This document shows, piece by piece, positions 34,630-53,290 of a stretch of 64,000 nt of DNA. This stretch comes from Caldilineales bacterium (GTDB taxonomy: Bacteria; Chloroflexota; Anaerolineae; J102), in contig JAIBAP010000008.1 of assembly GCA_019695115.1 (NCBI GenBank), positions 56,960 to 120,959 of the forward strand, given 5' to 3'. The number at the start of each line of letters is the position of its first letter. Position 1 is the first letter of the stretch. Both the position numbers and the translations under genes were made by a program. The notes beneath the pieces are model-generated. The model had not been told where the DNA came from and did not search any database. It worked only from the letters and a program-made list of their open reading frames with translations.

Positions 34630-34875
34630 GGTGCGTGAGACGTGAGGCGTGAGACGTGAGGCGTGAGGCGTAAGACGTGAGGCGTGAGGCGTGAGGCGTG
34701 AGGCGTGAGGCGTGAGACGTGAGGCGTGAGGCGTGAGGCGTGAGACGTGAGGCGTGAGGCGTGAGACGTGAGGCGTGAGACGTGAGCACGTGAGGCGTGA
34801 GACGTGAGGCGTGAGGCGTGAGGTTGGCGCCCGTGGTTCACGGTTCACGGTTCACGGTTCACGCCTCACGTTTCC
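34630..34875 (-). repeat. Large 7-bp tandem array upstream of queA
   Basis: From 34630 to about 34826 the plus strand is almost pure GTGAGGC/GTGAGAC in 7-base register, about 28 units. It is followed by inverted material at 34831-34875: TTCACGG four times and GCCTCACG. On the queA sense strand the far arm is CGTGAAC-like and the near arm GCCTCAC-like, so the RNA can fold back. Because three units make 21 bases, the array is open in frame and encodes a 7-residue repeat. Confidence 0.93.
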
Positions 34876-34969
34876 GGCTTGTGGCCGGATGATCGCTAGG
34901 ACGATGGCGGCATCCGCATCTGGCCGGGTGGCGGGGGCAAAGGGCGGCGGCCAACAGGCGGCGGCAACG

Positions 34970-35006
34970 AATGAGCCGCGACAGCAGAGGGCGGCCGCGG
35001 CTCATT
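34970..35006. repeat. Inverted repeat downstream of nuoN
   Basis: Arms AATGAGCCGCG (34970-34980) and CGCGGCTCATT (34996-35006) with a 15-base loop. The surrounding 34876-35021 holds GGCGGCGGC-rich sequence and no gene. Confidence 0.6.
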
Positions 35007-35021
35007 CATTGCCAGGGGGCA

Positions 35022-35055
35022 AAACCCTAAAGGTTTTCGAAAACCTTCAGGGTTT
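35022..35055. terminator. Palindromic element at the end of the nuo operon
   Basis: The perfect palindrome AAGGTTTTCGAAAACCTT (35030-35047) is nested in outer arms AAACCCT (35022-35028) and AGGGTTT (35049-35055). It lies 7 bases after the nuoN stop and probably stops the long nuo transcript or protects its 3' end. Similar AAACCCTNAAGG palindromes are dispersed repeats in other genomes as I recall, so it may be an inserted element. Confidence 0.6.
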
Positions 35056-35061
35056 ACGTTT

Positions 35062-51123: not shown

Positions 51124-52571
51124 GGCAACCACACACTTGGCGCGTTTAGAAGGGTGGGTCCAGCGATTGGATGCAGCTTTGAATCTGTCAGGCTCATCAT
51201 CCAGACTTCGCCATGGTCTCCCATAGCCACAGTAGCGACTAAATGCTGACCGTCGGGCGACCACCCGATATGCGAGAATCGTTGTTCACCAGACTGGGTG
51301 AGTTGCTGGGCCGTCTTTGTTTCAAGATCGAACAAGTAAATACTGTTGGTTTCCTCCTTGCCACTCTGCGCTTTCTCCACCTTCAACGCCGCCACATAGC
51401 GACCATGTGGCGACCAAACTGCCCGATGAGAGTATTCTACAGCCTCGCCGAGTAGCCCTAACATTCTGCTTTCGCCGCTGTTCAAGTCCGTTGTCCAAAG
51501 TTGTATTTGCGAATTTGCAAGATTCGACGGAGATGGCGCTGTGTCGCCTATAACGTTGGCAATCCATATGATATCTCCTCCATCTGGCGACCACTGCAGG
51601 CTGTGTTCGGCGACATGGGTTCCGCCTGGAATCTGAGTAACGATACTGCGTTCGCTATCTTCACCTTTTCGCAGGCCGATTTCGGTCATCTCGATATCAC
51701 GAACGCCATAAGCGGCCGGATAAACAACAGCATCGGCAAGGTAGTTGCCATCAGGAGAGTAAGCCGCCGCCCTGAGCAGGCTATCGCCAAAGTCAGATTG
51801 GGGAAATTTGATCGGTTGATAGCGATCTGATTCGACGTCGACCAGCCACGGATCCGAGGTAAAGAGCTGGTCAAATTGGACCAATACATGTTGACTGTCC
51901 GACATCCAACTCAGAAAACGAGCATCGGATCGATTCGCTACGATCGGTCGGGATGTCTCGGCGTCGAGATCGACAAGAACCGAACCAAGTGACTCGCCAC
52001 TTGCCAGATCAACAGCCAGCAGACGATGGTTGGGGGATGGATGGAGATCGGTTGCACTCGGACCTGGTAACTCTGACTGTAAACCAATATCGATCATCCG
52101 TTCATCATGTCCCCAACGTTGTCCTTCTTTGTCAAGGTTCACTAGCGCCAATTGTGGTGTGATATTCTGAGCGGGCCAATATACGTACCAAAGGGCTTGC
52201 AGGTGTTCCGGCGGTATTCCGGAAGGCATAGGAGCGAAGGCAGGCGTGGCAAAAGGTAGTGGAGTTGCCTGAGGCGTCGGCGTTTGCGGCGTCACCTCAG
52301 GCGGCCATGGTTCACCAGTCGGCCAGCCGGGTGGTGGCGCAACTGTCGCCGCAGCTGTTGCAGTCGGACGAAGCGTAACAGGTACTGGGGTTGCCTTGGC
52401 AGTAGGCGTCCTTTGTGGCGATTGGAATACTCCGGATGTCAACGTTGGCCCGTTTGGGAGTATTGCTTCCTCGGACAGAAGGCCGCGTAACAGCAACAGA
52501 ATGCCCCCAGTCACGATCAACAGGGTAGCAATCATCACGAAGCTTCGTAGCTGGGCTAGCGACTTCATCAT
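51120..52571 (-). CDS. Membrane-anchored TolB/WD40-like beta-propeller protein
   Basis: A 483-residue protein. An N-terminal anchor (MIATLLIVTGGILLLLRGLL) is followed by a Pro/Thr-rich linker (about 45-115, with TPTPQATPLP) typical of surface proteins. The rest is beta-propeller blades with the TolB-like marks AAYSPDGNYLADAV, LQWSPDGGDIIWIANV, AVWSPHGRYVAALKVE and IGWSPDGQHLVATVAM. Such propellers bind peptides or glycans outside the cell. It overlaps the M23 gene by 4 bases, so the two form a unit; both interrupt the nuo operon on its own strand. Base composition is nearer 50 percent GC than its neighbours, supporting later insertion. Confidence 0.8.
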   Translation of the reverse strand: MMKSLAQLRSFVMIATLLIVTGGILLLLRGLLSEEAILPNGPTLTSGVFQSPQRTPTAKATPVPVTLRPTATAAATVAPPPGWPTGEPWPPEVTPQTPTPQATPLPFATPAFAPMPSGIPPEHLQALWYVYWPAQNITPQLALVNLDKEGQRWGHDERMIDIGLQSELPGPSATDLHPSPNHRLLAVDLASGESLGSVLVDLDAETSRPIVANRSDARFLSWMSDSQHVLVQFDQLFTSDPWLVDVESDRYQPIKFPQSDFGDSLLRAAAYSPDGNYLADAVVYPAAYGVRDIEMTEIGLRKGEDSERSIVTQIPGGTHVAEHSLQWSPDGGDIIWIANVIGDTAPSPSNLANSQIQLWTTDLNSGESRMLGLLGEAVEYSHRAVWSPHGRYVAALKVEKAQSGKEETNSIYLFDLETKTAQQLTQSGEQRFSHIGWSPDGQHLVATVAMGDHGEVWMMSLTDSKLHPIAGPTLLNAPSVWLP

Positions 52572-52636
52572 AGTTGCTCTGTGGAGCTATTGGAACATGA
52601 ATCGCTCATATATCGAGCCAAGTGTGCATAGCTAAT

Positions 52637-53173
52637 TCAAGGCAGCGGCGGCAAATCGGAACCTTCGGGCAGCATCGCCACCGCCGGCGTGATCGTGTGA
52701 TCGGTCAGCTTCTCTTTGTCGATCTTGGCCTGCAACTGCGTCAGGGCAAAGAGCAGGGCCTCGGGCCGGGGCGGGCAGCCGGGCACATAGACATCGACCG
52801 GGATGATCTTGTCTACGCCCTGGACGATGGCGTAGTTGTTGAACGGCCCCCCGGCGCTGGCGCAGATGCCCATGGCGATGACCCATTTCGGCTCGGCCAT
52901 CTGGTCATACAGCCGCTTGATCACCGGCGCCATCTTGTTGCTCACCCGGCCGGCCACGATCATCAGGTCGGCCTGGCGAGGCGAGGCGCGGAACAACTCC
53001 GAGCCAAAACGGGCGATGTCGTGCCGCGCCGTGCCGGTGGTGATCATCTCGATGGCGCAGCAGGCCAGGCCAAAGAGCAACGGCCAGACGGAGTTCTTGC
53101 GACTCCAGTTGACCATGTATTCGAGCGACGTGGTGACGACGCCGGCGTTGGAAAGATGTTGTTCGAGGCCCAT
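52637..53173 (-). CDS. nuoB: NADH-quinone oxidoreductase subunit B
   Basis: A 178-residue subunit holding cluster N2, which delivers electrons to quinone. The four cysteines are in FGLACCAIEM (two adjacent), MGICASAGGPFNNYA and DVYVPGCPPRPEALLFAL. ATG 53173 begins MGLEQHLSNAGVVTT; the frame upstream (to 53269) is repeat-derived and rejected. It is the second nuo gene, and after it the order is broken by the propeller and M23 genes. Confidence 0.97.
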   Translation of the reverse strand: MGLEQHLSNAGVVTTSLEYMVNWSRKNSVWPLLFGLACCAIEMITTGTARHDIARFGSELFRASPRQADLMIVAGRVSNKMAPVIKRLYDQMAEPKWVIAMGICASAGGPFNNYAIVQGVDKIIPVDVYVPGCPPRPEALLFALTQLQAKIDKEKLTDHTITPAVAMLPEGSDLPPLP

Positions 53174-53179
53174 GGTGGT

Positions 53180-53290
53180 TGGAGAGGGGGGATTGGAGAT
53201 TGGAGAGTGGCGATTGAGTATTTCGTATTGCGTATTTCGTATGATTGGCTGCAACGTTTTACGCAACACGCAACACGCAACACGTACTAC
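53180..53290 (-). repeat. Inverted 7-bp arrays between nuoA and nuoB
   Basis: Heptamers in register (TTGGAGA twice, GTGGCGA, TTGAGTA, TTTCGTA, TTGCGTA, TTTCGTA; 53190-53240) are followed after about 20 bases by an inverted set (ACGCAAC three times, ACGTACT; 53262-53290). On the nuoB sense strand the far arm is GTGTTGC-like and the near arm ACGCAAT/CCAATCT, then a C-rich tract before the ATG. Confidence 0.92.

Follow-up and report, generated by a model that had tools for sequence, protein, structure and literature searches.

Heptamer arrays in the gene gaps of a Caldilineales-type Chloroflexota genome follow a G-then-C order regardless of gene direction and unit family

Why do arrays of 7-base units stand directly before the start codons of so many genes of one nuo operon? 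The question is raised by a 64,000-nt stretch of DNA from a Caldilineales bacterium (assembly GCA_019695115.1, contig JAIBAP010000008.1, positions 56,960 to 120,959), hereafter called the window, in which a first-pass annotation had noticed such arrays upstream of 12 genes, namely nuoB, nuoEF, nuoH, nuoI, nuoJ, nuoM, nuoN, queA, carB, a VOC gene, a beta-CASP gene and xdhA. Tandem 7-base units are known from the gaps between genes of filamentous cyanobacteria as short tandemly repeated repetitive (STRR) sequences, some of them (CCAAT types) alike to the arrays described here. Reading of the window by sequence inspection and Tandem Repeats Finder located arrays at all 12 genes, with carB and xdhA preceded only by short ones seen by eye, and before each of the 12 starts the sense strand is C-rich and G-poor. 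Extension of the analysis to the host genome and its relatives showed that, where both kinds of array share a gap, they almost always stand in a G-then-C order regardless of gene direction and unit family. We put a probability of roughly 55% on the reading that these are dispersed arrays with units of 7, sometimes 8, bases, that two-armed inverted elements were the likely form in which they spread, and that at starts only the orientation predicted to open the messenger is probably retained.

The host genome, of the Caldilineales type within the Chloroflexota, comprises 135 contigs totaling 5.99 Mb. About 2.0 Mb from contigs 1-18 served as the sample, with a smaller sample of 864 kb for some counts. 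Genes were called in this analysis, their start positions being approximate and their stop positions not. Arrays as short as the ones preceding carB and xdhA fall below the detection threshold, so that all array counts are low. Within the 2.0 Mb, 401 of 437 period-7 arrays are intergenic and 7.7% of the intergenic DNA is made of arrays; extrapolation to the whole genome gives about 1,200 of them. At period 7 the 864-kb sample holds 168 intergenic and 7 genic arrays, and at period 14, a harmonic of 7, it holds 134 intergenic ones. The corresponding intergenic numbers are 2, 0, 2, 16 and 1 for periods 4, 5, 6, 8 and 9 and 0, 0, 8, 2 and 6 for periods 10, 11, 12, 13 and 15. Arrays are present in 223 of 1,096 tandem, 23 of 134 divergent and 20 of 138 convergent gaps (2.0 Mb), and the gaps bearing them are mildly clustered (87 neighboring pairs versus 70.5 +- 5.9 expected). 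In a post hoc comparison restricted to gaps of 60 nt or more, arrays are present in 8 of 9 nuo gaps versus 221 of 676 (0.327) tandem gaps in the sample. There are 69 different dominant units and nine unit families, the patterns of which were written after data inspection; counts based on skew and gene-free counts are independent of the families. The median absolute GC skew amounts to 0.50 in arrays and 0.14 in control stretches.

A preference for starts, as had appeared from the window, was not confirmed, since 34.5% of 142 tandem arrays lie within 25 nt of a start and an equal 34.5% within 25 nt of a stop. Tandem arrays rather hug gene edges as such, with a mean distance of 30 nt to the nearer edge versus 54 nt for random placement in the same gaps. 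Polarity was counted after exclusion of arrays with a GC skew below 0.2 (34 in the host, 13 in the nuo loci of relatives). At starts, arrays that are C-rich on the sense strand outnumber the opposite kind by 105 to 1 within 20 nt and by 167 to 13 regardless of distance. At stops, it is the arrays with a G-rich sense strand that prevail, by 104 to 25 within 20 nt and by 129 to 58 regardless of distance; both arrangements are referred to as outward-G. The first-pass annotation had named equal placement at 3' ends, or both polarities at the nearest start, as speaking against it: the former is what we found, and the polarity near starts is nearly absolute. The two edges differ in strictness (p 1.4e-6), and convergent stops alone are outward-G by 12 to 3 within 20 nt (p 0.035). 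The median distance from the stop codon to the first G block is 7 nt, the stop codon itself being part of that block in 26 of 150 tandem gaps, and the last C block ends at a median of 22 nt before the start (185 tandem gaps). A start is found within 20 nt for only 2 of 133 G-type arrays versus 103 of 206 C-type ones. Tandem gaps with arrays of one kind are C-rich only in 98 cases and G-rich only in 39; a start-specific filter thus does seem to exist. An explanation by quadruplexes was rejected: the three-tetrad motif, scored as a sequence motif only, occurs in 22 of 367 skewed arrays, and the 345 arrays without it keep their polarity within 20 nt of gene edges, with 94 to 1 for starts and 103 to 20 for stops.

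The relative order of the two kinds is stricter than their placement. Scored by families, 125 gaps contain both kinds, and 122 of these read G-then-C, two read CGC, one reads GCGC and none reads C-then-G alone. The 122 comprise 111 tandem, 4 divergent and 7 convergent gaps, so that all 11 two-armed convergent or divergent gaps obey. Scored by skew, G-then-C prevails by 89 to 1 in tandem, 6 to 0 in divergent and 4 to 0 in convergent gaps, and in a gene-free test 85 of 86 neighboring opposite pairs follow the same order. It extends to the inner blocks: in 64 of 67 gaps with at least three blocks of both kinds, all G blocks precede all C blocks, often in differing families. As G-then-C reads alike on both strands, the order is independent of gene direction. 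The same order in 7 of 7 two-armed convergent gaps, which contain no start, and in two palindromes inside carB shows that the polarity at starts is not a property of the start codon. The inner arms belong to one family in 44 of the 122 gaps (null 20.7, maximum 35), and the other 78 obey the order with unlike arms. Mirror-like nesting of palindromes as a general rule was rejected, the families often not being mirrored.

Arrays inside genes carry the order into coding sequence. The carB frame encodes a full-length carbamoyl-phosphate synthase large subunit (1,564 bits) and was compared with six CarB homologues, these being the loci that gave a long frame among 20 relatives searched. Two in-frame octamer palindromes, both G-type then C-type, occupy 6205..6286 (82 bp) and 6647..6741 (95 bp); CarB is 6-18 and 19-34 residues longer there than the six homologues, and the array-coded peptides of both are lacking in 6 of 6. 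A further in-frame array at 5912..5960 lies in a length-variable region where CarB exceeds the homologues by 2-13 residues, and it is less clear as an insert than the other two. The region 5912-6741 of the window hence holds two, perhaps three, in-frame array inserts. A heptamer palindrome, again G-type then C-type, is located at 55040..55104 inside the called open frame 54368-55729, which is a predicted frame, and an in-frame heptamer array at 62556..62595 inside xdhA (61632-63866). Over the 2.0 Mb, 42 genic period-7 or period-8 signals, many of them weak, form 38 groups; the two-armed groups are the two in carB and the one in frame 54368-55729, all G-then-C. The peptides encoded by in-gene arrays differ by unit family.

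Comparison with relatives revealed the same order at changing sites. Arrays are sporadic in the nuo loci of 80 relatives, each of 11 orthologous nuo gaps bearing arrays in 2-7 of 43-70 of them, and array-free orthologous gaps are often far shorter than array-bearing ones; nuoJ and nuoK overlap by a median of 1 nt without an array and are separated by 49-185 nt with one. Across these loci the order is G-then-C by 18 to 1, and by 15 to 1 in the gene-free test, from which locus L029, a part of the same-genus genome G001, was left out while being kept in the 18-to-1 count of order and in the polarity and orthologous-gap counts. The arrays are outward-G at any distance by 30 to 6 at starts and 36 to 4 at stops. 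Genome G281, from another family of the phylum, gave an order of 14 to 0 and convergent stops of 6 to 0, and G001, having few arrays, an order of 2 to 0 and starts of 4 to 0; in G007 the order is 1 to 0. Among 38 syntenic tandem gaps of the host (G000) and G001, 1 has arrays in both, 7 in the host only, 3 in G001 only and 27 in neither. The seven host-only gaps measure 87-280 nt versus -1 to 101 nt in the orthologue, and the three G001-only gaps 73, 165 and 148 nt versus 4, 114 and -4 nt, indicating accretion. Array sites are not conserved between species. The same-genus genomes match at 71-77% on the DNA level and are therefore too distant for base-level empty sites in the gaps to be within reach, against which the terminal inverted repeats and target-site duplication of a MITE would show. 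Exact CACGCAA tandems in 7 of 251 and CCAAT-type arrays in 10 of 101 genomes of the phylum, the host included in both, show that the units are unevenly spread. Within the host, two near-identical stretches of ~100 bp were seen by eye in gaps 17 kb apart (L013 and L014; G000 C2 64837-65056 and 82086-82201); they contain array arms together with the unique sequence around them and are possible recent copies.

Several other readings of the arrays were weighed. The nearest to the original observation takes the CA-rich or C-rich array as a dedicated, selected leader that replaces the Shine-Dalgarno (SD) site. The polarity near starts and the excess of C-only over G-only tandem gaps favor it, as does a second codon CCC in 26% of 54 array-start genes versus 3.6% of 385 others (864 kb), as if the C-rich stretch continued past the ATG. 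The claimed lack of an SD site proved to be a matter of degree: SD-like tetramers are rarer before array starts (20% of 54 versus 36% of 329 starts in array-free gaps) but not absent. Since the G-rich orientation is all but absent near starts, the leaders there are G-poor, and those formed by C-rich arms are predicted to fold little. Between -45 and +28, the mean minimum free energy computes to -5.1 kcal/mol for the 121 starts that have a C-rich block no more than 30 nt away, to -17.6 with the block flipped and to -15.4 for array-free starts (n=781), and the start-like codons upstream number 0.18, 3.70 and 1.45, respectively. Nonetheless, a dedicated leader appears unlikely, because array sites change between species, as the 2-7 of 43-70 relatives with arrays in each orthologous nuo gap illustrate, and arrays are equally common near stops and also occur between two stops and inside genes. 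As the whole explanation, a start-codon element was rejected on account of the equal numbers at stops and the same order in convergent gaps. With a similarly small share of our confidence, the arrays may be ordinary slippage repeats that arise in both orientations and are sorted only by selection at gene edges. The 69 dominant units and the closeness to edges (30 versus 54 nt) agree with this, whereas the ordered inner blocks (64 of 67 gaps), the gene-free order of 85 to 1 and the carB palindromes do not. An intercistronic RNA hairpin serving processing, stability or coupling, in which the G arm after a stop pairs with the C arm before the next start, is less probable again. Strong hairpins are predicted for the palindromic arrays of the nuoH-nuoG gap (43124..43204; -34.8 kcal/mol, z -7.95, with 22 unpaired 3' nt through the ATG) and the nuoEF-nuoCD gap (48147..48237; -37.6 kcal/mol, z -6.90), and the nuoB-nuoA gap (53188..53297), with G-type then C-type arrays on the + strand, folds at z -4.50; own arms are also more complementary than swapped ones (0.381 versus 0.258 +- 0.025, 55 gaps). 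The suggestion that a far arm lets the RNA fold back agrees with the folds predicted for these three gaps, yet such a hairpin would fail in most gaps, with inner arms sharing a family in just 44 of 122. Gaps of one kind are common (98 C-only, 39 G-only), the near-arm regions of nuoN and nuoM fold no better than shuffles (z -0.59 and 0.94), divergent and convergent gaps show the same order, the segment between C arm and start is T-poor (T 0.15, 105 segments), unlike the end of an intrinsic terminator, and Rfam yielded no family at gathering score for 33000-56000 of the window.

Two further readings concern the origin of the arrays. Movement by a REP-associated tyrosine transposase (RAYT), as for repetitive extragenic palindromic (REP) sequences, is quite improbable. 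The genome does contain three Y1_Tnp genes, and the arrays are palindromic, intergenic and dispersed, but none of these genes has a period-7 array in the 2.7-3.3 kb examined around it, for which reason RAYT was rejected as the mover, and both arms are tandem 7-base arrays rather than single palindromes of 20-40 bp. Marginally less credible still are scars of end healing, in which broken 3' ends would be extended with G-rich heptamers as at telomeres and the healed ends joined. Healing and joining would make every gap G-then-C on both strands, whatever families the ends had received, and if true would account for strand asymmetry, unlike arms and all-G-then-all-C stacking in one step. However, no Ku gene was found in five genomes, and the reverse transcriptases (RTs) examined resemble enzymes of diversity-generating retroelements or group II introns. 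RVT_1 is present in four array-bearing genomes and was not found in the array-poor G001, but this lead was rejected given its presence in 42 of 101 phylum genomes. Three of these RTs, L233 (G000 C92), L234 (G281) and L235 (G119), are related (~360 aa, 52-54% identical). L233 and L234 adjoin proteins that by eye resemble formylglycine-generating enzymes, with two similar C-terminal segments at L233, and we take these neighborhoods, likewise by eye, to resemble diversity-generating retroelements. A fourth RT scores below the cut-off of the group II intron model. Snap-back priming, in which the G strand would fold on itself, was set aside as weakly supported (DNA self-fold of -1.97 versus -1.52 kcal/mol per 50 nt, 261 arms).

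Of the three options offered by the first-pass annotation, a mobile repeat fits best and a start-codon element or a transcript processing signal less so. A dispersed inverted array element on which selection at starts acts as a filter agrees with the order intrinsic to the gaps, with the palindromes inside genes and with the change of sites between species. The spreading unit would be a palindrome that has a G-rich left arm when read on either strand. Its arms may then lengthen or shorten by 7-base slippage and could be exchanged between families. Next to starts, G-rich arms would be removed by selection, presumably for the false start codons and the structure they bring, and the G-poor leader left behind may serve as a landing site independent of SD sequences. 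A number of observations weigh against this dispersed inverted element. Neither a transposase nor a target duplication nor a boundary common to the elements was found, and around the three Y1_Tnp loci (2.7-3.3 kb each) there was no period-7 array and one short octamer-family block at the L217 end. A simple inverted element would also not lead one to expect the unlike arms seen in the majority of two-armed gaps. The rule at stops leaks, with 25 exceptions among 129 arrays within 20 nt, 58 among 187 at any distance and convergent stops of 15 to 9 at any distance, and in G001 it fails (4 to 4). The few arrays with a quadruplex motif stand at 1 to 5 near stops, and divergent starts at any distance give 1 outward-G to 2 outward-C in the relatives' nuo loci and in G281 alike. 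The two-armed cases within genes are only three, all in the window. The calculated opening of starts is modest once the folding covers entire tandem gaps (60-400 nt): the unpaired probability at the start then reaches 0.62 in C-only gaps (n=61), 0.54 (n=66) and 0.51 (n=38) in two sets of two-armed gaps, 0.48 in G-only gaps (n=30) and 0.455 in array-free gaps (n=325). The folding calculation does not prove selection at starts. Dispersed non-array repeats occur in 84 of 259 array gaps and 166 of 709 array-free gaps, and no mover was identified among them.

The heptamer arrays of Xanthomonas (GGGAATC) and Nostoc/Anabaena (GGGGA(C/T)T) are described as mostly intergenic and have been studied as G-quadruplexes, with their function open; most G-rich patterns lie on the non-coding strand near starts and on the coding strand near stops, divergent gaps are under-represented and inverted pairs exist (PMC4692102). 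The arrays reported here are likewise intergenic 7-base tandems (401 of 437) with outward-G polarity (105 to 1 and 104 to 25). In contrast to the quadruplex units there, 345 of 367 lack the three-tetrad motif, and they come in nine unit families with unlike arms. The polarity, first thought unusual for its consistency, is thus already in print for G-rich heptamers, whereas the order across families is new. In marine Beggiatoaceae, TAACTGA forms direct repeats of 2-6 copies directly before starts, mostly in one orientation and usually without a ribosome site, with 147 of 170 sets directed towards starts and 12 towards stops, and translational regulation was proposed (PMC4679880). Heptamers before starts are common to both systems, and one family here has TTACTGA-type units, but instead of one unit there are many, in longer arrays and with equal occupancy of stops. 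Exact tandems in the 2.0 Mb number 0 for GGGAATC, 5 for GGGGATT and 2 for TAACTGA, with TAACTGA variants outside the count. Rickettsia palindromic elements of ~150 bp, each with a conserved peptide, form in-frame palindromes inside genes (PMC10969869); the two carB inserts share the in-frame palindromic insertion but consist of 8-base arrays of 82 and 95 bp, and most of the arrays here lie in gaps. The REP elements that carry GTAG or CGTC at their ends are single short stem-loops, the GTAG kind often lying beside a tyrosine transposase and reported from Chloroflexi (PMC3733652); they too are dispersed intergenic palindromes, without the tandem 7-base arrays that form the arms here and that were not found at the three Y1 genes examined. 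Among the matches listed, no report names such arrays for Chloroflexota in its title or abstract opening. Relative to these papers, the new points are that one rule applies across different unit families in the absence of quadruplex motifs, to unlike arms, to gaps with no start codon and to the inside of genes, and that it occurs in Chloroflexota.

Within the window, NCBIfam supports carB, queA and nuoEF above cut-offs; the beta-CASP gene and xdhA match related families below cut-off and the VOC gene gave no match. NuoH is supported by its relatives (the nearest named ones being Caldilineales and Chloroflexota genomes), and the other nuo names are those of the first-pass annotation. The array-to-start distance is 2 nt for nuoN, 4 for nuoM, 16 for nuoJ, 14 for nuoI, 14 for nuoB, 0 for nuoEF, 4 for queA, 0 for the VOC gene and 33 for the beta-CASP gene; for nuoH it is 29 nt at the detection threshold and 10 by Tandem Repeats Finder. 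The queA-nuoN gap (34634..34870) holds a long array, G-type on the + strand, 4 nt from the queA start, followed by a GGTTCAC array of weak skew, the end of which is 191 nt away from the nuoN stop. Blocks of four families fill the nuoN-nuoM gap (36540..36718), families 7 and 1 (C-type sense) on the side of the nuoN start and families 4 and 5 (G-type sense) on that of the nuoM stop, the last block on the nuoM side being an octamer that reaches the nuoM stop codon. A single array at 38211..38247, C-type on the sense strand, ends 4 nt before nuoM, and a 70-bp repeat in two copies lies between nuoL and nuoM (38288-38431). The nuoJ-nuoI gap (41337..41482) has one family 16 nt from the nuoJ start and another 2 nt from the nuoI stop, and the array 14 nt before nuoI (41976..42010) is followed by a C-rich run up to the ATG. 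Between the NuoE and NuoF parts of the fused frame, a 180-bp repeat of non-heptamer type (75-bp unit, 2.4 copies) was observed at 47478-47657. Outside the operon, a short CCAATCT-type array on the + strand (4639..4661) is followed by a C-run before carB (start 4670), one of the same type on the - strand (63867..63890) directly adjoins the start codon of xdhA, and a TCCGCCC-type array on the + strand (8485..8546) reaches the ATG of the VOC gene. The gap between an RNase D-like gene and the beta-CASP gene (14037..14172) contains two arrays, G-type then C-type on the + strand. A single 3'-end array (26791..26821) lies 4 nt from the stop of gene 26826-27335 and 254 nt from the next start; an IS630-type transposase fragment (26826-27452, below family cut-off) has this heptamer array 4 nt past its stop.

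Heptamer arrays have so far been described separately in cyanobacteria, Xanthomonas and Beggiatoaceae, with differing functional guesses ranging from quadruplex to translational regulator. In this Chloroflexota genome, one rule holds for many unlike units, without start codons or quadruplex motifs and even inside a housekeeping enzyme. The question thereby shifts from what a repeat does at the start codon to which process makes array pairs G-first. With the placement at start codons, it becomes possible to test whether a repeat, as it spreads, may provide genes with leaders free of SD sites.

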